Origin: Bacteroidota bacterium | Lineage (GTDB): Bacteria > Bacteroidota > Rhodothermia > Rhodothermales > JAHQVL01 | Direction of reading: 5' to 3' | DNA: 44,237 bases | Assembly (NCBI GenBank): GCA_039111535.1 | Contig: JBCCIM010000024.1 | Location: 1 to 44,237, forward strand | Shown here: piece after piece, positions 9,179 to 36,001 of the stretch | Layout: every line of letters starts with the position of its first letter | Position numbering within the stretch: position 1 is the first letter of the stretch | Position numbers and translations under genes: made by a program | Notes under the pieces: model-generated | The model's database searches: none | Told to the model about the DNA's origin: nothing | The model's input: only the letters and a program-made list of their open reading frames with translations

Positions 9179-9194
9179 TCTTCCACGTGGAACT
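9179..9194. promoter_or_regulatory. parS-like palindrome
   Basis: A 16-bp site around a perfect 12-bp palindrome (TTCCACGTGGAA, 9181-9192). It matches the general bacterial parS consensus as I recall it (TGTTNCACGTGNAACA) at 14 of 16 positions, and its right half-site GTGGAAC is exact. It is intergenic. Whether the host ParB binds it is unknown. A chance or other-regulator palindrome is possible. Confidence 0.4.
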
Positions 9195-9205
9195 TGCACA
9201 TATAA

Positions 9206-9229
9206 TATACATATGTTATCATATGTATA
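9206..9229. promoter_or_regulatory. AT-rich inverted repeat, possible operator
   Basis: A perfect 10-bp inverted repeat (9206-9215 with 9220-9229) has a 4-nt spacer and lies 57 bp before the start of the transposase-domain gene. A TATAAT hexamer at 9201-9206 abuts it, so the repeat would overlap a transcription start. It could be an operator or a relic of a transposon end. Confidence 0.4.
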
Positions 9230-9285
9230 CACATCACGCAGATATATACGCTGCTAACTTTCTTCATCACCTTACGCAAGCTGCA

Positions 9286-9771
9286 ATGATTGAACCTCTA
9301 GTTTTGACAGAAAAACAGACCGCCCTTACGGATAGTCAATGGGATGCCATCAAAGACCTGTTTGATTGCCGGCGCAAACGCAAACACGCCATCCGGGGCA
9401 TTATCAATGCGATTCTTTACGTGGTGCATAACGACATCCACTGGCGGATGCTACCCAAAAGCTATGCACCGTGGCAAACAGTTTATTACTATTTCGACAA
9501 GTGGAGAAAAACGGGCGTGTGGCAACGCGTGCTCGAAACCTTACCGAATGACATTCGGCAAAAAGCCATGGCATCCTCTTTTGTCTCTCCGTACCCGACA
9601 GTAGATCTCAAAATCTACCAGGCTACACCACAGCCTCGTCGCGCAAAGATTCATACAGTGGAAGCCGGCAGCAGCCTTACGCCTGAGCAACGTCAGGCAC
9701 GCCGCTACGCCTGGGTACTACGCGATTTTATCGGATCTGACGACGATTCACCACACAACCAGGCAGCCTAA
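9286..9771 (+). CDS. orphan IS5-type transposase N-terminal domain (DUF4096-like) protein
   Basis: 161 residues from the ATG at 9286. The first about 100 residues match the helical DNA-binding domain at the N-terminus of IS5-group transposases, with LTDSQWDAIKDLF, then HAIRGIINAILYVVHNDIHWRMLPK, then WQTVYYYFDKWRKTGVW. The following about 60 residues are not transposase-like: no DDE catalytic segment, a basic PRRAKIH stretch and an acidic end. No second ORF of an IS5 pair and no terminal repeats follow; the next gene begins within 75 bp. It may be an IS remnant or a domesticated DNA-binding protein. Confidence 0.65.
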   Translation: MIEPLVLTEKQTALTDSQWDAIKDLFDCRRKRKHAIRGIINAILYVVHNDIHWRMLPKSYAPWQTVYYYFDKWRKTGVWQRVLETLPNDIRQKAMASSFVSPYPTVDLKIYQATPQPRRAKIHTVEAGSSLTPEQRQARRYAWVLRDFIGSDDDSPHNQAA

Positions 9772-24983: not shown

Positions 24984-25910
24984 ATGGTCGAGAAACTTAC
25001 CGGGCTGATTGCAGCTCCCCATACCCCTATGCATTCCGATGGCCGTCTGCATCTTGATGTCGTAAAAGCACAGGCCGCGCTGCTCCGGAAAGAAGGCGTC
25101 CGCGGGGTTTTCATTGGGGGGACCACCGGTGAAGGTGCCTCCTTAACCTTCACCGAACGCAAGGCGCTTACCGAAGCCTGGGCCTCGGTTACTGATTCAG
25201 ACCTTGCGCTTATTGTACACGTGGGACACAATGCACTTCATGAAGCTTGCGCCCTCGCGGAACATGCCAAAGCATCAGGAGCCCACGCAACAGCCGCGTT
25301 AGCCCCATCTTTCTTCAAACCGGCCGACATTACCACCCTTGTTGATGTTTGCGCAACCATCGCGCGTGTTACCCCGGACCTCCCGTTTTACTATTACCAC
25401 ATCCCTTCAATGACTGGCGTCGCGCTATCGATGCCCGATTTTCTTCGTGTAGCCGGCCCGCGCATACCGAATCTTGCCGGCATCAAGTTCTCCACGAGTG
25501 ACCTCATGCAATTTCGAAGCTGCCTGACACTCGATAACAGCCGTTACACCATGTTTTTCGGTTCGGATGAAATGCTGCTCGGAGCGATGGCGATGGGCGC
25601 AACGGGCGCAGTAGGCAGCACTTACAATTACGCAGCGCCAAACTATGTGCGCATGATCCAAGCATATGAGGAGGGAGACATAGAAAAAGCTGGGAAATAC
25701 GCAGGCCATGCGGTTGCGCTTGTTGAAGTCCTCATTAAATATGGGGTAATGCAGGCCGGCAAAGCCATCATGCAGATGCGGGGTGTTAACTGCGGCCCAG
25801 TCCGGCTTCCGCTAAAGCCCCTTTCTTCAACTCAAAAAGGGCAACTGTTCGAAGAAGTGCGTCAGCTCGGTATTTTTAAATCTGTACAGCTTACCCCGCC
25901 GGAAAAATGA
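24984..25910 (+). CDS. nanA: N-acetylneuraminate lyase
   Basis: A 308-residue class I aldolase that cleaves N-acetylneuraminate to N-acetylmannosamine and pyruvate. The Schiff-base Lys168 lies in GIKFS, Tyr138 in YYYHIP, and the carboxylate-binding GTTGEG at residues 46-51. The motif set GTTGEGASLTFTER, FYYYHIPSMTG and GSTYNY matches sialic-acid lyases of the animal type better than dihydrodipicolinate synthases. Its stop overlaps the start of the next gene (ATGA), which encodes a Kelch-symporter fusion fitting sialic-acid uptake. No nanE, nanK or nag genes are in the window. Confidence 0.88.
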   Translation: MVEKLTGLIAAPHTPMHSDGRLHLDVVKAQAALLRKEGVRGVFIGGTTGEGASLTFTERKALTEAWASVTDSDLALIVHVGHNALHEACALAEHAKASGAHATAALAPSFFKPADITTLVDVCATIARVTPDLPFYYYHIPSMTGVALSMPDFLRVAGPRIPNLAGIKFSTSDLMQFRSCLTLDNSRYTMFFGSDEMLLGAMAMGATGAVGSTYNYAAPNYVRMIQAYEEGDIEKAGKYAGHAVALVEVLIKYGVMQAGKAIMQMRGVNCGPVRLPLKPLSSTQKGQLFEEVRQLGIFKSVQLTPPEK

Positions 25911-28534
25911 AATCGACGCTGCTTGCCCTGTTTTCGGGCATTCTCTTCTTTCTGACACCGCAAGCCGATGCATTTACGGTTGGGATCTCCTCTGATTCAC
26001 TACAATGGCAACAACTCACACCTTTGCCAGATGCCTTTGGTTTTGCCGGCGTTTTTGCTGGCGTAACCCATGATGCCCTCCTGGTAGCCGGCGGTGCCAA
26101 CTTCCCAGCCGGCTCCAATTTTGATGGACACCCAAAAGTGTGGCACAACCAGATCTACCTCTTGCCCGAACCAAACGGCGAATGGCAAACCGGATTCTCG
26201 TTGGCAACACCATCTGCATACGGCGTCTCCATAACCTGGCAAAATGGGGTCGTGTGCATTGGAGGGGGGGACGCCAACCAGCACTTCAACAGCGTTTTCC
26301 TGCTCGAATGGGATGGCAACCAAATCCAGCAAACGGACCTGCCAGACTTGCCCGGCCCAATGGCATTTGGCGCCGGCGTGCTGCTCGGGGAAACCATTTA
26401 TGTCGCCGGCGGCATCAGTACCCCCGATGCAACAGCAGCCATGCACACGTTTTGGGCGTTAGACCTCTCAAAACCGCAGCCTGAATGGGAAACGTTGCCG
26501 GCGTGGCCGGGGCCGGGCAGAATGCTGCCCGTAATGGCAAAAACCTCGCAACATCTTTACCTCTTCAGTGGCACAGCACTCACAACAGACCAGGCCGGCA
26601 ATCCAGCCCGCCAGTTACTCACTGATGGCTACCGATACAATCCGGCGCTAAAGACCTGGGAGCAATTGGGAGACACACCACAGGCCATGGTAGCAGCCCC
26701 GGGGCCGGCAATACCTGTTGGGGCGTCCCATCTATTCTTTCTACCGGGAGACGATGGTCAACATGCTGCACAGGCCGCCATATTGCGCGACAATCACCCC
26801 GGATTTTCTCCTGCCTTATATGCATACAACCATTCAACAGACACCTGGCATCAGCAAGGCACGTTTCCAAAAGAGATCCCAGAAAACCTCGGGCCAAACC
26901 GCAATGCCGGTTTCTACCCACCCGTAACAACGCCGATTGTATTGTGGAAAGATGCTTACGTTTTACCTACCGGCGAAATCAGGCCAGGTGTACGGACGCC
27001 CCTCGTTTGGGCCGGCAACTGGCGTACAGTGGGTAGTGCATTTGGCACTACAAACGCAGCTGTGCTTGGCGTATATCTGCTGCTGCTTGTCGGAATGGGC
27101 GTCTATTTCGCCACAAAAACTACGTCTGCCCGCGCGTATTTCCTGGCCGGACAACAAATGCCGTGGTGGGCAGCCGGCCTGAGTATTTTTGCAACCATGC
27201 TATCTGCCATCACCTACCTTTCTATCCCGGCCACAGTCTATGCAACCGACTGGACCCGCTTTCTGCTAAACATGGGCATCCCACTCGTCGCACCCATTGT
27301 CATTCTTTTCTTCCTGCCATTTTATAGAAAGCTGGATGTTACCAGCGCGTATGAATACCTGGAAAAAAGATTCGACGTCTCCTTACGCTTGCTGGGTTCA
27401 CTTTCTTTTATCCTCTTTCAACTCGGCCGCATGGGCATTGTACTGCTCCTGCCGGCACTCGCGCTGAGTGCGGTCACCGGACTCAACTTATTTTTATGCA
27501 TTGGCTTGATGGGCTTGCTCAGTACCCTCTACACCGTACTTGGTGGCATGGAGGCGGTTATATGGACAGATGTTATCCAGGTCTTTGTGCTCCTTGGAGG
27601 CGCCATAGCAGCGCTCTTCATTATTGGCAACGCGCTTCCTGATGGCTTTGCACAAATCATCGAAGTGGCTGAAGCGCGCAACAAGTTCACTGTTGTCAAT
27701 CCGGGCTGGGACCTGACGACAGATTCCTTGTTTGTCATTATTCTCGGGATGCTGTTTGCCAATCTGCTTCCTTATACAACCGACCAAGCTGTTGTACAAC
27801 GCTACATGACAACAGCATCTGAAAAAGCAGCACGGCGGGCGATATGGACGGGTGCGTTGGTAGCTGTACCCGCTTCAGTGTTGTTCTTTTTCCTTGGCAC
27901 AGCACTTTTTGTCTTTTATATCGACTTTCCAGCCAGTCTTGCCCCCATCGAAAAAATAGATCAACTGCTGCCGTGGTTTATTGTGCAGGAAATGCCGGCA
28001 GGACTTGGCGGGCTCGTAATCGCCGGCGTATTTGCCGCGGCGATGTCCAGCCTCGACTCGTCCATGCATGCAATCTCGACAGCAGTTACAACCGACTTCA
28101 TTCAGCGATTTAAACCAGTTGATAACAATATCAACTGGTTAACCCTCGCGCGCTGGATCACCGTGCTGCTCGGCGTACTTGGCACCGCCAGTGCCATGCT
28201 AATTGCAACCTGGGACCTCGGTTTGATGTGGCGGATTTTCCTCGATATTACCGGACTCTTTCTAGGCACCCTGGGAGGCTTGTTTTCGCTCGGTATTTTC
28301 ACCGCAAGAACAACCGCTCGGCATGCATGGATTGGAGCCGCATTTTCTGTGGCCTGCCTCGGATACCTGACTTTTGCCACATCGATAAACGGCCTGCTTT
28401 TTGGCGCTGTAGGTACGCTTATATGTTTTATCGCCGGCTGGATCAGCAGCCTGATATTTCCTGCAAAAACACTACCTGACACCCAGGGGCTCACCGTATT
28501 CAGTAAAGAGACGGCTTTACATACATCAGCCTAA
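25907..28534 (+). CDS. Kelch-type sialate mutarotase fused to a sodium:solute symporter
   Basis: 875 residues. A signal-like helix (residues 1-22) is followed by a Kelch beta-propeller to about residue 375, with repeats such as VAGGANFP, CIGGGDANQ and YVAGGIST. This resembles the cyclically permuted relatives of the NanM sialic-acid mutarotase. From about residue 384 it is a full SSS-family symporter, with SAITYLSIPATVYATDW and the sodium-site helix AAAMSSLDSSMHAIST. SSS proteins have a periplasmic N-terminus, so the propeller would sit outside beside the transport path. The gene overlaps nanA by 4 bp. Substrate assignment to sialic acid rests on this context. Confidence 0.85.
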   Translation: MKSTLLALFSGILFFLTPQADAFTVGISSDSLQWQQLTPLPDAFGFAGVFAGVTHDALLVAGGANFPAGSNFDGHPKVWHNQIYLLPEPNGEWQTGFSLATPSAYGVSITWQNGVVCIGGGDANQHFNSVFLLEWDGNQIQQTDLPDLPGPMAFGAGVLLGETIYVAGGISTPDATAAMHTFWALDLSKPQPEWETLPAWPGPGRMLPVMAKTSQHLYLFSGTALTTDQAGNPARQLLTDGYRYNPALKTWEQLGDTPQAMVAAPGPAIPVGASHLFFLPGDDGQHAAQAAILRDNHPGFSPALYAYNHSTDTWHQQGTFPKEIPENLGPNRNAGFYPPVTTPIVLWKDAYVLPTGEIRPGVRTPLVWAGNWRTVGSAFGTTNAAVLGVYLLLLVGMGVYFATKTTSARAYFLAGQQMPWWAAGLSIFATMLSAITYLSIPATVYATDWTRFLLNMGIPLVAPIVILFFLPFYRKLDVTSAYEYLEKRFDVSLRLLGSLSFILFQLGRMGIVLLLPALALSAVTGLNLFLCIGLMGLLSTLYTVLGGMEAVIWTDVIQVFVLLGGAIAALFIIGNALPDGFAQIIEVAEARNKFTVVNPGWDLTTDSLFVIILGMLFANLLPYTTDQAVVQRYMTTASEKAARRAIWTGALVAVPASVLFFFLGTALFVFYIDFPASLAPIEKIDQLLPWFIVQEMPAGLGGLVIAGVFAAAMSSLDSSMHAISTAVTTDFIQRFKPVDNNINWLTLARWITVLLGVLGTASAMLIATWDLGLMWRIFLDITGLFLGTLGGLFSLGIFTARTTARHAWIGAAFSVACLGYLTFATSINGLLFGAVGTLICFIAGWISSLIFPAKTLPDTQGLTVFSKETALHTSA

Positions 28535-28560: not shown

Positions 28561-28971
28561 TCATACCTGAGCAACGGGTTCAGCCGACTTCCTTGCCGGA
28601 TCACCGATATGCAGAAAAAGAAACAATCCCTGCGTAACGAGCAGGTTGGTAACCAGAAAAAAAGTGGCTTCTTCAATAGGCAACCCAAACAAGTGCCAAC
28701 CGGTGGTGTATTCCTCAGCGATATACCAAATGCCCAGTTCGAGCGCTACCCGATCAGCTATCCATAAATAAATGGTTGGGATGATAGTGCTCCAGAACCA
28801 TAGCTTGCGTTCTGCCCAAATCCAGTTGCCCGCATAAGCCCACTGTCCGGCCAGTACAGGAAGCGCCCACACCAGAATCAACCCCATGTACAAACCCGAA
28901 TCATGGGCGAAATGAAAGATACCAGCAATAGCAAGTAGGAGATAAATCAAGGCGCCGACAATACGAGGCAT
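28561..28971 (-). CDS. crtYd: lycopene beta-cyclase, CrtYd-like half
   Basis: A 136-residue protein with several membrane helices and the catalytic-type motif LPIEEATFF of the CrtYc/CrtYd cyclase family. The start at 28971 is the first Met after an in-frame TGA that ends the CrtYc half. It has no visible ribosome site (CCCTTCC precedes it). The reading frame is open and the same as crtYc back through codons R-Q-E-S-F-T-A-G-P-S-N to that TGA. It may be made by reinitiation or readthrough, or this may be a broken fusion gene. It is convergent with the symporter gene, 26 bp apart. Confidence 0.85.
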   Translation of the reverse strand: MPRIVGALIYLLLAIAGIFHFAHDSGLYMGLILVWALPVLAGQWAYAGNWIWAERKLWFWSTIIPTIYLWIADRVALELGIWYIAEEYTTGWHLFGLPIEEATFFLVTNLLVTQGLFLFLHIGDPARKSAEPVAQV

Positions 28972-29004
28972 ATTGGAAGGGCCGGCGGTGAATGATTCCT
29001 GGCG

Positions 29005-29307
29005 TCACAACACGAGGATATAAAAGAATAAACCCGTCAGTAGGGGCTGCAAGAGGAAAAACATGTATTCCTCGATGGGTACATACCCGATGGTAGCCAT
29101 CACGCGTTCGGGTCCATATCCCCAGACACCCCGATATACCAGGTAGTTGTCCCACGCTGTGGTGTATATAAGTGCAATGCCGGCAACCGCAAACATCCAC
29201 TTTAGTGAGTAAGACTTCATTGCAGCAGCAACAGTTCGGCGGTAAACTAGCGCCAGCAGAAAAATGACCGGCAAAATAAATACAAAGTGAAACTGGAGGT
29301 ACGTCAT
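29005..29307 (-). CDS. crtYc: lycopene beta-cyclase, CrtYc-like half
   Basis: A 100-residue protein with about three membrane helices and the PxEE motif VPIEEY, typical of the N-terminal half of carotenoid cyclases of the heterodimer or fused type. It ends FFYILVL then TGA. The next 11 codons contain no stop and lead in frame into the CrtYd half, so without the TGA a single protein of about 248 residues, near the usual length of fused cyclases, would be made. It is 30 bp behind the CrtO-like gene. It forms beta-ionone rings on lycopene. Confidence 0.85.
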   Translation of the reverse strand: MTYLQFHFVFILPVIFLLALVYRRTVAAAMKSYSLKWMFAVAGIALIYTTAWDNYLVYRGVWGYGPERVMATIGYVPIEEYMFFLLQPLLTGLFFYILVL

Positions 29308-29337: not shown

Positions 29338-30870
29338 CTAAACACGTTTTTTCTCGAGGTCTTTTAAAACTACCGTGGCGGCATTACGGCCGGAAGCGCC
29401 CATGATGCCGCCACCCGGATGGGTACTGGCCCCCGTGAGGTAAAGGCCTTTGATGTTTGACTTGTAGCCGGCCATGCCAAGTTGTGGACGCAACGCAAAC
29501 ATCTGGTCTATACTCATTTCAAGATGCATCACATTGCCCTTAAACAAGCCCAACTCGCGTTCGAGGTACAGGGGATGCTGAAAGAGAGAGCCTACCACCG
29601 AATCGCGTGTGCCCGGTGCATAGGCCTCAAAAGTATCCAGCAACCGATCAGCCACAGCATCCCCGCGCGTATCCCAGTCGCCTTCTGCCAATTCGTATGG
29701 GTAATACTGTCCCCAAAGCCACAGCACTTCTCCTCCTGGTGGTGCCAATGTATCATCTACCGCACTAAAGGTCATGGCTACAATGGGTGGATCGGATGCA
29801 GGTTTCCCGGCGAGGTAATCACCGTATGCGGCGTTAATTTGCTGCCGATCGCGGCAAATTAGCTGCAAGGCCGTGCGTGCTTCAATACCCGGACTCGCTT
29901 TATAGCTGACCGGTTTATCCAGCGCCAGGCGCAGAATCGCGCCAAATCCATTCCCAACCCGTAACCGATTTATACCTTTAGGGTGGTGGGCGGTATCGAG
30001 CAATTTGCCAAAGGTTTCGAGAATGTGGGTTCCCGACACAATTGCACGCGATGTGTAGACCTGTTTATTCACCCGAATGCCGGCGGCACGGCTATGCTTT
30101 ACCAGGATCTCATCAACCGGCGCATTCACAAAAATTTGACCGCCATGTGCCTCTATAAACTTCCCAAGCGCTTGTGTTAACATTCCCGAACCACCGCGTG
30201 GCCGAGCAATGCCGCCCACGTGGTACAGCGCCTGCCACAACACAAATGGACCGGTGATGGGTTCCGTTGGCGGCGGCCCAGACTGGGCAGCCATCCATAC
30301 CAGCATTGCTTTCAGCTTTTCTTCGCTGAAATAGTCATCGACTACATCGCCGTACGGTTTCAGAATTTTCTGCAAGGCCTCCTGCCACGTAGAGTTGGGG
30401 GTCCGCCCTTTCATCATCATGCGCCCCATTTGTAAGGGTCCAGGCGCACTCAAAAACATCTCTCGCACCGATTCACCAAAAGGCCGCCACTCATCAACAA
30501 AATGACGATATGCCGATCCTTCTCCCGGAAACTTCGCATCAATGCCGGCGGCTGTCTTGTCGACATCCCGATAAATAAACAGGGCATCGTCATCCGGGAA
30601 AGGCGCAAAAAACAAGGGATCAAGTTCGAGATAATTGAGGCCGTATTTCTCCAGCTCTAGCTCTTCAATAATGGGCGTGAGGCGGATTAGAATGTGCGCA
30701 CTTCCTCCCAAATCAAACTGATAGCCCGATACAAGCTCTTTGGTAGACACTGCGCCACCAATAATATCCCGTCGCTCAAATACCCCCACTCTATAACCTG
30801 TTTTTGCCAGATATGCTGCAGTAATCAGGGCATTATGTCCTGCCCCAACAACAATCACATCAAAGTCCAT
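29338..30870 (-). CDS. crtO: CrtO-type FAD-dependent carotenoid oxidase (probable 4-ketolase)
   Basis: A 510-residue flavoprotein of the phytoene-desaturase superfamily. The dinucleotide motif [17 protein letters not shown] at residues 5-21 has the GAGHN variant typical of CrtO ketolases and PYROXD2-like proteins. The C-terminal FAD-closing motif [24 protein letters not shown] is also present. CrtO adds a keto group at C4 of beta rings, which suits the adjacent lycopene cyclase. It is the first gene of the leftward operon, divergent from carH. A desaturase or isomerase role cannot be excluded from sequence alone. Confidence 0.78.
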
Positions 30871-30988: not shown

Positions 30989-31951
30989 ATGCCTAAAATA
31001 GCCGAACAGAACCTGTTAACCACAAAGCAGGCTGCACAACTTATCGATGTGCATGAGTCTTCTGTCAAGCGTTGGTGCAAAGAAGGTAAAATTCCGTGCG
31101 ATGTCACCGAGGGCGGACATCGCAGAATTAGCCTGCACGAACTGCTTGAATTTGCAGATACCCGCAACTTGCATTGTTCACTCAGCCATTTCCTTCCAGA
31201 AATACAGCTTGTGTGGCGTGGGTTAAGGAATGCGCAAAATAAGAAGAATTATGACATCCTCTTCAATAAGGGATACACGTGGCTCCGCCAGGAGAACCAG
31301 CAATTGTTCACACATTTAGTTAAATTTTGCCTGGAGCAGGGCATCTCTTTCAGTGAGCTGTTTGATGAGTTGATTTCTCGGGCGTTAAGACAAATGGGTG
31401 TTGACTGGCAGTCGAACGTGCTTGATATCGGGACTGAGCACCATATGACGGAAATTGTCCGTGATATTTTGCATGAGATTCGTCTGAATCCTGTTGAACT
31501 ACGTGTTGGTAGCAAGAAAGGCGGCAGAAGCAGACAAACGATCGATCCGCAACCCGTAGCAGTGGTTGGATGCAACGCAGGCAACTTGCACGACCTTGGC
31601 GCCCATGCCATTCGGATTATACTCGAAGAAAGAGGCTGGAGAGCAATCTATGTTGGCGCAAATGTGCCGGCAGACGATTTGGCAAAGTTGCAGGCTAGGC
31701 ATAATGCATCTTTGGTGTGTATCTCGTTTGTCTCGGCTAGCATGATCAATGAAGCAGAAAGATTTATTGAGATATTGAGTCGATTCTACAACCCAAGCCA
31801 TCCTTACCACCTGGCCATTGGCGGATACGATTTCCCTCCCAATGCCGGATTACAGTTGGAGCGGCCTCCTTTCATAGAAATCAACACCTATCGATCCACC
31901 AATGCATTTACGCAATGGCTCGATCAATACGCGAAATCAGTAACTGTATAG
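30989..31951 (+). CDS. carH: CarH/LitR-type B12-dependent light-sensing MerR-family repressor
   Basis: 320 residues. A MerR-type DNA-binding domain (residues 9-55, LTTKQAAQLIDVHESSVKRW) is followed by a helical bundle and a cobalamin-binding Rossmann domain with NLHDLG (His201 as lower ligand), SFVSAS and IGG. The bundle has Trp140 and, nine residues on, Glu150-His151: the W-x9-EH adenosyl-pocket motif of CarH. The residue after the Trp is Gln141; in Thermus CarH it is His132, which binds cobalt after light exposure. In the dark CarH tetramers repress carotenoid genes and light splits them. It lies 24 bp ahead of the cruF-crtB fusion, so it probably also represses itself. Confidence 0.93.
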   Translation: MPKIAEQNLLTTKQAAQLIDVHESSVKRWCKEGKIPCDVTEGGHRRISLHELLEFADTRNLHCSLSHFLPEIQLVWRGLRNAQNKKNYDILFNKGYTWLRQENQQLFTHLVKFCLEQGISFSELFDELISRALRQMGVDWQSNVLDIGTEHHMTEIVRDILHEIRLNPVELRVGSKKGGRSRQTIDPQPVAVVGCNAGNLHDLGAHAIRIILEERGWRAIYVGANVPADDLAKLQARHNASLVCISFVSASMINEAERFIEILSRFYNPSHPYHLAIGGYDFPPNAGLQLERPPFIEINTYRSTNAFTQWLDQYAKSVTV

Positions 31952-31975: not shown

Positions 31976-34408
31976 ATGAAGCAATCCCCAAGATCTATTT
32001 CTGGCAGCGCCTGGGCCACCAGGTGGCCCCTTGCCATTCTTTTCGTATTTACTGCCATTGCAGGCATCGGATACGCGACGTTTGGCCGGCACCCACAGCT
32101 GTTACAACACACCCCGCAGTTTGCCGAATTTTTCAGTATATCGTTCACCTTTTTTGCGCAGACGCACATTCTGTTAACGGCGCTTTGCCTTTGCATCTAT
32201 CTGACGTACCGCGTGCAATTGCGGTGGTTGGGCGGATTTGCAGCAGTTTATCTTATCAGCCTTGGCAGTGAGCTTACAGGCACGGCAACGGGTCTGCCTT
32301 TTGGCCCTTATTCGTATACTTCCTTGCTTGGCCCCAAATGGCTCGACCTTGTCCCGGTACTCATTCCGTTGAGTTGGTTCACCATGGCGTTGCCGTCGTA
32401 TTTTCTGGCCTACATCACATTCCCGAACAGCAAACAATTTTTGCAGCGCATTGGCTTCGGTGGCTTATTGCTCATGTTATGGGACCTCGCCCTCGACCCG
32501 GCAATGAGTTACCTGACCCCATACTGGCAATGGGGTGAAACCGGCACCTATTATGGTATGCCGTGGATCAATCTTGCCGGCTGGCTACTCACCGGTATCG
32601 TGCTCATGGCAGCACTTTATTTGTTAAAGGTCGACAATTGGATCTCCAGGCTTTCTGCTTCATGGATGGTCAAGTATTACCTGCTCGTGCTGATGATGCC
32701 GATGGTTATGGTGGTTGTGGCCGGCCTGTGGTGGAGCGTTGGGCTTACCGTCGTTTCAATGGGGCTTTGTGCGCTTTACATCAATCACAAAGCGGTGCGT
32801 TTCCCCGGCGCCGACAACGATGGCCCCAAGCCATTACACGAAGCGCTCGAAACGGAAGAGCTGAACGATTATTTCATGCACCACTCCCGCTCCTTTTCTT
32901 TTGCAGCGCGCTTTTTCTCCCCTGAACAACACCGCCTGGTAACGAGGCTCTATGCTTTTTGCCGGACTACAGATGATATTGCAGATATCTATGGTGTTCG
33001 CAATGGAAAAGAGGAGGCCCTGAAACAACTGGAAGAATGGGAACGGCGGGTGCACCTTTCTTACCAGGGTATTCCATCCAATATCACCTGGCTGGATGAA
33101 TTGATGACACGCTCCGTGCAATCGGGCGTGCCTTACCAAATTATCAGCGACCTGATCGAAGGGGTACGTTCAGACCTCGACAAAGTAGAACTGCAGACCA
33201 TGGCGCAGCTAGATCGCTATACGTACTGCGTAGCTTCTGTTGTTGGGATCTGGTTGTGCTACCTGTTTGGTGTACGTGAACAAGAAGTACTCGACCGGGC
33301 TGCTGCGCTTGGTCGTGCAATGCAGGTTTCCAACATCATGCGAGACGTAGGAGAGGACTTGCGAATGCACCGCCTCTACTTGCCGGCCGAATTAATGAAG
33401 CGACATGGCGTAACGAAAGACGAACTACTGGCCATGGAAGCCGGCACGCTCCGCCCAACTGAAGCCTACAAAATTCTTGTTGAAGACCTCCTCGAACGCG
33501 CAGAGGCAGATTACAACTTTGCCTTCCGCGGCCTTTCTGCCATTCCACCCTCTTTTGCCAGGGCAGCTGCTGTTGCATCCGAGGTGTACAAAGGTATTCA
33601 TCGCTCCATTCGACGTAACAAATACAATAATTTCCAGCGCAGGGCCTACACCCGGTGGTATGAGAAAATTTACCTTGCCGCGCGCGCACTCAACCGGCTC
33701 AGAAAAACGCAGAAAAGACCGTTTATACCAGCAAACCAGTCTTTGCCCGTAGCAGACAAAAATATGGGAAACGGTAAGCAGATCCCTTTCTCGATTATTG
33801 TTGTCCTGCTGGTATTTATCCAGAGCTTGTTTATAAACCAGGCTACGTTTGCCACGCACGGTCGAACCCACACCGCTAACCTAACAGTTTTACAACAGCA
33901 GGTGGTTTTGATGCACGAGTCTGTCATTGAGGAGTTACGTGCAAAATATATTGCGGCCGTCGAAAACGAGGCGATGATTGTTCAGGCCATGACGCTTATT
34001 GAAAAGGTCGACGACAAAACGCCGGCCATTCAAGCTTATGCCGCCGCATTTGATGTACTCCGCGCAAAACACGCATTCTGGCCGCTAAAGAAAATGAAAC
34101 ACCTCCGGAACGGTTTGCCCAGGCTTGATGCATTGGTTGCAAGGCATCCGGTTGAAGTTGAAATCCGCTACCTGCGATTACTGAGCTGCTATTACCTGCC
34201 ACGTTTCCTTGGCCGCAGCGACACAGTAACCCAGGATTTTAAAGCATTGGCCTACCTGTTACCCGACGCACGCGCATCCTACCCTTCACAACTGTATTAC
34301 GATATGGTTGAGTTTGTCGCATCCAACAGCAATTTAAGCCAGGAAGAGCGATCATCACTCCATGTGATCTTGCAAGAAGCCCCCAGGATGTCGACTGCCT
34401 CACGGTAA
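31976..34408 (+). CDS. crtB: CruF-like carotenoid hydratase fused to phytoene synthase and a C-terminal exported domain
   Basis: 810 residues in three parts. Residues 1-275 form a multi-helix CruF/DUF422 domain (GLPFGPYSYT, WDLALDPAMSYL, YYGMPWINLAGW), a 1',2'-hydratase of acyclic end groups. Residues 288-580 are a complete phytoene synthase with the prenyl-diphosphate motifs DDIAD (333-337) and DVGED (457-461). Residues 597-810 start like a signal peptide (Met597, helix 604-622) and continue in an uncharacterised domain (RYLRLLSCYYLPRFLG). The topology puts the third part outside the cytoplasm if residue 597 onward is not separately translated. It lies between carH and crtI in the light-regulated operon. 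Confidence 0.88.
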   Translation: MKQSPRSISGSAWATRWPLAILFVFTAIAGIGYATFGRHPQLLQHTPQFAEFFSISFTFFAQTHILLTALCLCIYLTYRVQLRWLGGFAAVYLISLGSELTGTATGLPFGPYSYTSLLGPKWLDLVPVLIPLSWFTMALPSYFLAYITFPNSKQFLQRIGFGGLLLMLWDLALDPAMSYLTPYWQWGETGTYYGMPWINLAGWLLTGIVLMAALYLLKVDNWISRLSASWMVKYYLLVLMMPMVMVVVAGLWWSVGLTVVSMGLCALYINHKAVRFPGADNDGPKPLHEALETEELNDYFMHHSRSFSFAARFFSPEQHRLVTRLYAFCRTTDDIADIYGVRNGKEEALKQLEEWERRVHLSYQGIPSNITWLDELMTRSVQSGVPYQIISDLIEGVRSDLDKVELQTMAQLDRYTYCVASVVGIWLCYLFGVREQEVLDRAAALGRAMQVSNIMRDVGEDLRMHRLYLPAELMKRHGVTKDELLAMEAGTLRPTEAYKILVEDLLERAEADYNFAFRGLSAIPPSFARAAAVASEVYKGIHRSIRRNKYNNFQRRAYTRWYEKIYLAARALNRLRKTQKRPFIPANQSLPVADKNMGNGKQIPFSIIVVLLVFIQSLFINQATFATHGRTHTANLTVLQQQVVLMHESVIEELRAKYIAAVENEAMIVQAMTLIEKVDDKTPAIQAYAAAFDVLRAKHAFWPLKKMKHLRNGLPRLDALVARHPVEVEIRYLRLLSCYYLPRFLGRSDTVTQDFKALAYLLPDARASYPSQLYYDMVEFVASNSNLSQEERSSLHVILQEAPRMSTASR

Positions 34409-34471: not shown

Positions 34472-36001
34472 ATGATTGCTTCCCATGATATAGATAAAGG
34501 TGCAGACAAGCATGCTGTTGTAATCGGCGCCGGCTTTGGCGGGCTTGCCATTGCTAACCGACTTCAATCAGCCGGCATGCAGGTAACCCTGCTGGAAAAA
34601 CGCCCTAAAGTAGGGGGCCGCGCCTACCAGTTTGAAGAAAAAGGATATCTGTTTGACATGGGCCCCAGCCTTATTACCGCGCCGGCCCTCATTGATGATA
34701 TTTTCCAGCAAGCCGGGCGTTCAGCATCTGAATTCTTCAGCCTCATCCCACTTGACCCTTACTACCGCGTCTATTTCCACGATGGCACGTACTTCGATTA
34801 CTCGGGTGATACCGAGAAAATGAAGGCGCAAATGCGAAAATTCAATCCAGGTGATGCAGATCGCTACGATGATTTTATGGCTGCCATCGCCCCGATTTAT
34901 GACGAGGTCATCACCAAAAAACTCGGCGCTCAACCTTTTGATACGCCGGGTTCTATGCTGCGTTTTACTCCCCGCGCCCTCCAGCTTAAAGCATTCCTGC
35001 CTGTAACGGCTTACGTAAACCGGTACTTCAAAGATTTTCGGCACCGGTTTATGTTCAGCTTCCACCCGCTCTTTATCGGTGGACACCCGTTCAGGGCTCC
35101 CTCCATCTACTTGATGATTCCTTTCCTGGAAAGGGTTGAAGGCGTATGGTTTACCAAAGGCGGCATGTATACCGTAGTCGATGCGCTGAAGCGGCTTTTC
35201 ATTGAGCAAGGCGGCAAACTACAAACCGATGCTGAAGTATCGGAAATTGTGGTTGAAAACGGTAAAACATCTGGCGTCAAAGTTAACAACGAATACATGC
35301 CGGCAGATGTAGTGGTCTCCAATGCAGACTTTGCCCACACCTACAAACATCTGATCGACGCGCGTTGGCGAAAGAAATGGACCGACAAAAAGCTGGATAA
35401 AATCAAGTACAGCATGAGTTGCTTCCTGCTGTACCTTGGCGTCAAAAAACAATTCCCCGAGCTTGAGCACCATACCCTCATTCTCAGTGAACGATACAAA
35501 GGGCTGGTCGACGATATTTTCGACAACGCCCCCCTCCCGGATGACTTTAGCATGTATGTGCATGCGCCAACCAAAAGTGATCCGGATATGGCGCCTCCGG
35601 GATGTGAGAGTATCTACATCCTGATCCCGGTCTCCAACCTTACTTCAGAAACGGACTGGAACAAGGAGCGCACAGCGTTTACCGACAAAGTGCTCAATTT
35701 CCTCGAGGCCTGGGGCATGGATGGGCTAAAAGAGAATCTGGAAGTGTTGAAAATCTTCACCCCGCTGGAATTTGAAAGCGAGCTGAATGCTTATCAAGGC
35801 AATGCTTTTGCCATCGAACCCAAGCTAACCCAGACTGCTTATTTCAGGCCGCATAACCGCAGTGAAGATGTTGACGGCCTCTACTTTGTAGGCGCTGGCA
35901 CACATCCAGGCGCTGGGGTGCCCGGGGTCATTCTGTCTGCAGAAGCCACTGCAGGCTGCGTGATGCATGACCTTAAAATTGAAGCCCCGGCCCTGACCTG
36001 A
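34472..36001 (+). CDS. crtI: phytoene desaturase
   Basis: A 509-residue FAD enzyme converting phytoene to lycopene. The Rossmann motif VVIGAGFGGLAIANRL is at residues 16-31 and the family ending is GLYFVGAGTHPGAGVPGVILSA. Also seen are GGRAYQFEEKGYLFDMGPS and the KGGMYTVVDAL segment. It is 63 bp behind the cruF-crtB fusion in the same operon and followed by a terminator. Length and motifs are those of bacterial CrtI. Confidence 0.95.
   Translation: MIASHDIDKGADKHAVVIGAGFGGLAIANRLQSAGMQVTLLEKRPKVGGRAYQFEEKGYLFDMGPSLITAPALIDDIFQQAGRSASEFFSLIPLDPYYRVYFHDGTYFDYSGDTEKMKAQMRKFNPGDADRYDDFMAAIAPIYDEVITKKLGAQPFDTPGSMLRFTPRALQLKAFLPVTAYVNRYFKDFRHRFMFSFHPLFIGGHPFRAPSIYLMIPFLERVEGVWFTKGGMYTVVDALKRLFIEQGGKLQTDAEVSEIVVENGKTSGVKVNNEYMPADVVVSNADFAHTYKHLIDARWRKKWTDKKLDKIKYSMSCFLLYLGVKKQFPELEHHTLILSERYKGLVDDIFDNAPLPDDFSMYVHAPTKSDPDMAPPGCESIYILIPVSNLTSETDWNKERTAFTDKVLNFLEAWGMDGLKENLEVLKIFTPLEFESELNAYQGNAFAIEPKLTQTAYFRPHNRSEDVDGLYFVGAGTHPGAGVPGVILSAEATAGCVMHDLKIEAPALT

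Follow-up and report, generated by a model that had tools for sequence, protein, structure and literature searches.

A fused-type lycopene cyclase gene split by one in-frame stop codon in a Rhodothermales carotenoid cluster

Lycopene cyclases composed of two chains, CrtYc and CrtYd, occur naturally (PMC2889829). In the actinobacterium Mycobacterium kansasii, the chains are encoded by two adjacent half-genes that overlap by about two bases (crtYc extends to position 2346963 and crtYd begins at 2346962), and disruption of either gene alters the pigment (PMC9861118). In Rhodothermales, Halobacteria and Deinococci, the two halves are fused into a single protein, CrtYcd, encoded by one uninterrupted frame. 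In the salinixanthin cluster of Rhodothermus marinus, the cyclase is proposed to form gamma-carotene, with CrtO acting as the ketolase; the genes for the cyclase and the CrtO-type ketolase share one operon, and those for CrtB and CrtI lie in a divergent one (PMC5822342).

The locus described here lies in a contig of 44,237 nucleotides (the window) from a Rhodothermales genome represented by one assembly (6.59 Mb, 355 contigs, 97.6% complete, 0.06% contamination). Its cyclase shares the family, the two TIGR03462 domains, the length and the linker of the fused CrtYcd proteins, and its gene stands behind a CrtO-like gene, as do the fused genes of its relatives. Unlike these uninterrupted genes, however, it is parted into two halves by one TGA (Table 1). 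As in M. kansasii, the result is a pair of neighbouring half-genes, each complete and distinct from the other, that run in the same direction. The stop and start do not overlap as they do there; instead the window genes are 33 nt apart and in one frame. They also derive from a fused ancestor, in a phylum other than Actinobacteria; this comparison draws on the actinobacterial literature alone.

Table 1. Features of the split cyclase locus and the adjoining carotenoid genes (window coordinates).
Feature	Coordinates	Strand	Description
crtYd	28971-28561	minus	C-terminal half, 136 aa, ends with TGA at 28561; four predicted membrane helices
Gap of 33 nt	28972-29004	minus	11 open codons, RQESFTAGPSN
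In-frame TGA	29005-29007	minus	Codon 101, opening the interhelical linker; flanked as TTG TGA CGC
crtYc	29307-29005	minus	N-terminal half of a fused-type lycopene cyclase, 100 aa, ends with TGA; three predicted helices
CrtO-like FAD oxidoreductase	29338-30870	minus	Best NCBIfam match CrtO NF045689, E 2.4e-95, under the strict cut-off
CarH-like B12-binding regulator	30989-31951	plus	NF052513, E 4.5e-10, under the cut-off
CruF-CrtB fusion	31976-34408	plus	Carotenoid 1'-hydratase and phytoene synthase; PF04240, PF00494
CrtI-type desaturase	34472-36001	plus	PF01593, E 2.5e-41

Both halves match the NCBIfam model TIGR03462 above its curated cut-off of 39.4 bits (74.3 bits for crtYc, 70.8 bits for crtYd) and keep the conserved motifs, which places the gene in the CrtYcd-type family by sequence. 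The two starts are 336 nt, or 112 codons, apart in the same frame, and the TGA is the sole interruption of a 248-codon CrtYcd frame. Read through, this frame matches fused CrtYcd proteins along its whole length, with 50-58% identity and no gap at the stop site, and the codons between the halves align with the variable linker of the fused homologues. The original prediction had reported these coordinates, the shared frame, the 112-codon spacing and the lone TGA, all of which were exact on recheck, as well as the 11 open, linker-like codons, which the alignment confirms. That a fused lycopene cyclase gene has been split here by one stop codon is well supported.

The column occupied by the stop holds arginine in 60 of 97 homologues, encoded by CGC (26), CGG (14), CGT (11), CGA (7) or AGA (2). 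Given the prevalence of arginine at this column and the seven CGA codons, the stop is most simply explained by a C-to-T transition. A CGA-to-TGA change at residue 101 would therefore most likely account for the stop, in keeping with the earlier proposal that one nonsense mutation interrupted a gene that used to be fused.

In the AlphaFold2 prediction for the read-through protein, made with arginine at residue 101 and 50 sequences (pLDDT 94.2, pTM 0.90), helices lie at residues 3-29, 36-58 and 78-100 in crtYc and at 113-134, 136-165, 167-190 and 211-234 in crtYd, with residues 101-112 predicted to be non-helical. The last codon of crtYc, residue 100, coincides with the modelled end of helix 3, and the initiating methionine of crtYd, residue 113, with the modelled start of helix 4. 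Both chains are thus predicted to end or begin at helix boundaries, with the stop in the loop between membrane helices three and four. By rough calculations made after the case was seen, the linker would receive about 7% of the possible stop-making single-base changes in homologous genes, and for 0.5% an ATG would also remain downstream within it, which points to more than chance; only 18% of homologues have an ATG in the linker. A solved structure for the family was found neither by sequence nor, at E <= 0.001, by fold. Among solved folds, the read-through model comes nearest to MvINS, an Insig homologue from mycobacteria (4xu4/4xu6; Foldseek probability 0.99), a weak match with E of 0.1-0.2 and TM of 0.43-0.59.

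The nearest records to the window cyclase are from Rhodothermaceae and Rhodothermia metagenome-assembled genomes, at 56-57% identity. No nearer relative was found, and the age of the split is therefore poorly bounded; viral contigs and plasmids likewise yielded no near relatives or copies. When stops were counted in read-through matches, the window copy was the only stop-bearing one among 61 full-length copies of its class. Among the matches listed, those from Halobacteria (>150), Deinococci (about 52) and Gemmatimonadota (about 10) were free of in-frame stops, as were six additional copies from Bacteroidota, and the best 80 loci of genome contigs had terminal stops only. The comparison comprises 60 other full-length copies of the class and >210 from other groups, among the matches listed. 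In-frame stops initially reported for two genes, G059 and G039, proved to be the terminal stops of those genes. Two Deinococci loci (G690:C2:291447-292114 and G691:C1:797677-798347) have the CrtYcd parts in different frames, with a break near profile position 160; these breaks appear to be frameshifts and are away from the linker.

In the maximum-likelihood tree, whose inner support is moderate, two fused Rhodothermales sequences join the window copy in one group (95/60), nested in a clade of seven (86/93). Inheritance from an older split ancestor was considered and rejected, since the relatives examined are all unsplit and the gene branches from within the fused copies of Rhodothermales. The lack of an in-frame stop in the other listed full-length CrtYcd copies indicates that the split is derived and, judging from these sequences, lineage-specific, although it has been seen only once. 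The comparison with relatives suggested in the original prediction, which had envisaged that all of them might have separated genes, instead found the examined relatives fused.

The two halves show no sign of decay. Of 52 columns with at least 90% conservation across 49 relatives, one differs in the window copy (P51A), a change also present in its sister. With eight outgroups, relative-rate counts gave no significant excess for the window copy over its sister in either half; the sister was faster with two outgroups. The end branch of the window copy is 0.40, compared with 0.53 (sister) and 0.41, and its identity to the outgroup G019 is 56.8%, compared with 48.4% for the sister. No further lesions were found in either half. 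Conserved columns, relative rates and identity thus argue against a long-standing pseudogene. The gene displays neither the relaxed constraint nor the added lesions of a pseudogene, a state compatible with a very young one. The absence of decay in either half implies that the split is young or still under constraint. A very young pseudogene and a gene under selection are indistinguishable by these data, so that the earlier description of the split as very recent is only partly borne out: the lack of decay fits it, but a split gene that works and remains under constraint would give the same picture.

The genomic context of the gene is that of a carotenoid pathway. The CrtO-like gene is directly upstream of crtYc in the same direction, an order common to three other genomes (G001, G002 and G019), and the two genes are likely co-transcribed. 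The gene for the CarH-like regulator diverges from the CrtO-like/crtYc/crtYd unit, as do those for the CruF-CrtB fusion and the CrtI-type desaturase. The CruF-CrtB fusion protein (810 aa) includes a C-terminal region of about 230 residues for which Pfam gave no match; G002 also has this fusion (827 aa), adjoined by a CrtI-type gene as in the window. This arrangement resembles the two divergent operons of R. marinus (PMC5822342), with two differences. The window has a CruF, fused to CrtB, whereas no CruF homologue was found in the R. marinus study (PMC5822342), and its cyclase is split, unlike that of the R. marinus cluster.

Elsewhere in the window, a gene at 25907-28534 encodes a sodium:solute symporter joined to a Kelch-type N-acetylneuraminate epimerase domain and shares four bases with a DHDPS/NanA-like lyase gene (24984-25910); together these look like a unit for sialic acid uptake and use. 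A piece of an IS4/5-family transposase (9187-9771, 194 aa), matching DUF4096 only, is possibly one part of an insertion element.

The genome contains one other CrtYcd locus, unbroken (C21:25391-26092), between genes for a bacteriorhodopsin-like protein and a beta-carotene dioxygenase, and this copy falls into a separate, supported clade of the maximum-likelihood tree. The retinal gene set to which it belongs (L113:6082-10252) consists of a CarH-like regulator, the bacteriorhodopsin-like protein, the fused CrtYcd and the beta-carotene dioxygenase. We infer a division of labour in which the C21 copy would serve retinal synthesis and the window copy a monocyclic pigment. This second cyclase, the pathway context and the fit of the stop and start to helix ends had been overlooked in the original prediction.

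Bacteroidetes generally lack Shine-Dalgarno sequences and prefer an A at position -3 (PMC6847099). The ATG of crtYd has an A at -3, as does the start of crtYc, and lacks a Shine-Dalgarno sequence. The lack of a ribosome site had been noted before and is correct as an observation. Shine-Dalgarno-like motifs precede only 3 of 27 window genes, compared with 8.7% expected at random sites; since this is near chance, their absence at crtYd is uninformative, and its earlier use as evidence was rejected. In E. coli and Haloferax volcanii, a gap of 33 nt is beyond the measured range of termination-reinitiation, and coupling is nearly abolished (PMC10666635). This disfavours the reinitiation proposed earlier, and crtYd would need an independent start. 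Given the gap, it may be poorly translated.

Four readings of the locus were weighed. The one we place first, tentatively, is a young and probably functional two-chain cyclase, derived from a split CrtYcd in one Rhodothermales lineage. In its favour, two-chain cyclases occur in nature (PMC2889829, PMC9861118), and a start with A at -3 but no Shine-Dalgarno sequence is normal in this setting. Against it, the linker is split in none of the >270 other listed copies, from which it follows that the split is probably not neutral, and the second intact cyclase could make the window copy dispensable. Next in order comes a recently inactivated gene, a real possibility that we nevertheless consider somewhat doubtful: the TGA would have removed the cyclase of the pigment cluster and decay would not yet have begun, with the C21 CrtYcd sufficing or the pigment being dispensable. 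Loss of the window cyclase might be tolerated, since the intact copy between the rhodopsin and dioxygenase genes could compensate; coupled translation of crtYd is unlikely across the gap (PMC10666635), and broken copies of the family do exist, in G690 and G691. Against inactivation, the stop occupies the one type of site at which neither half is truncated, and a start codon stands at the helix that follows; the conserved sites have not loosened and no second lesion has been added, and the remaining genes of the cluster are intact. The helix-end fit in the model and the lack of decay favour two-chain function over recent inactivation only modestly.

An error of sequencing, assembly or strain mixture, with a sense codon at 29005-29007 and an ordinary fused crtYcd as the true state, is unlikely. 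The case for it is that the split depends on a single base in a draft of 355 contigs, that the TGA is unique among the surveyed copies listed, and that arginine is the usual residue at the column. However, single-base consensus errors are rare, and rarer still in a linker ahead of an ATG; the other conserved genes of the window match their families over almost their entire length and give no hint that false stops are frequent, and the assembly is nearly complete with little contamination. Least probable of all is readthrough, in which the TGA would be partly decoded as an amino acid and some full-length CrtYcd made. In E. coli, termination is weak at a TGA with C as the next base, and the frame beyond the stop is open over a linker of the usual length, but an open stretch of only eleven codons says little. 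In the window, TGA serves as a normal stop, ending 11 of 27 genes, and TGAC ends 3 of 29. A search of the genome for tRNA-Sec (RF01852) gave nothing over the cut-off, the two best candidates being tRNA-Ser, and the RNA fold around the stop is unexceptional (z of 0.28 and -1.45). Selenocysteine or other recoding signals, which would combine a tRNA-Sec with a special structure at the stop, were therefore rejected, and the readthrough suggested in the original prediction has gained no positive evidence.

The preferred reading, a two-chain cyclase, suggests the following scheme. One nonsense change would have split a fused CrtYcd into a three-helix CrtYc and a four-helix CrtYd. A single transcript would carry the CrtO-like gene, crtYc and crtYd, and crtYd would initiate on its own at the ATG at 28971 without a Shine-Dalgarno sequence, like most genes of the window. 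CrtYc and CrtYd would then associate in the membrane and close one end of lycopene, and the putative product, gamma-carotene, would be available for ketolation by the CrtO-like protein and hydration by CruF, in a pathway of the salinixanthin type.

The locus may, more speculatively, be a gene fission caught in the act, in which one substitution converted a single-chain membrane enzyme into a functional pair of chains. The frame would be unchanged, the stop and new start would mark the two ends of the interhelical loop, and every other examined member of the clade is fused. If so, the CrtYc and CrtYd form could arise naturally from fused CrtYcd in one step. We know of no described intermediate between the one-chain and two-chain forms of CrtYcd; if real and functional, the window gene would be a one-mutation intermediate in the fused-to-split direction. 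If inactive, it would be a just-lost cyclase beside a retinal-pathway copy, a situation that tests the interchangeability of the two.
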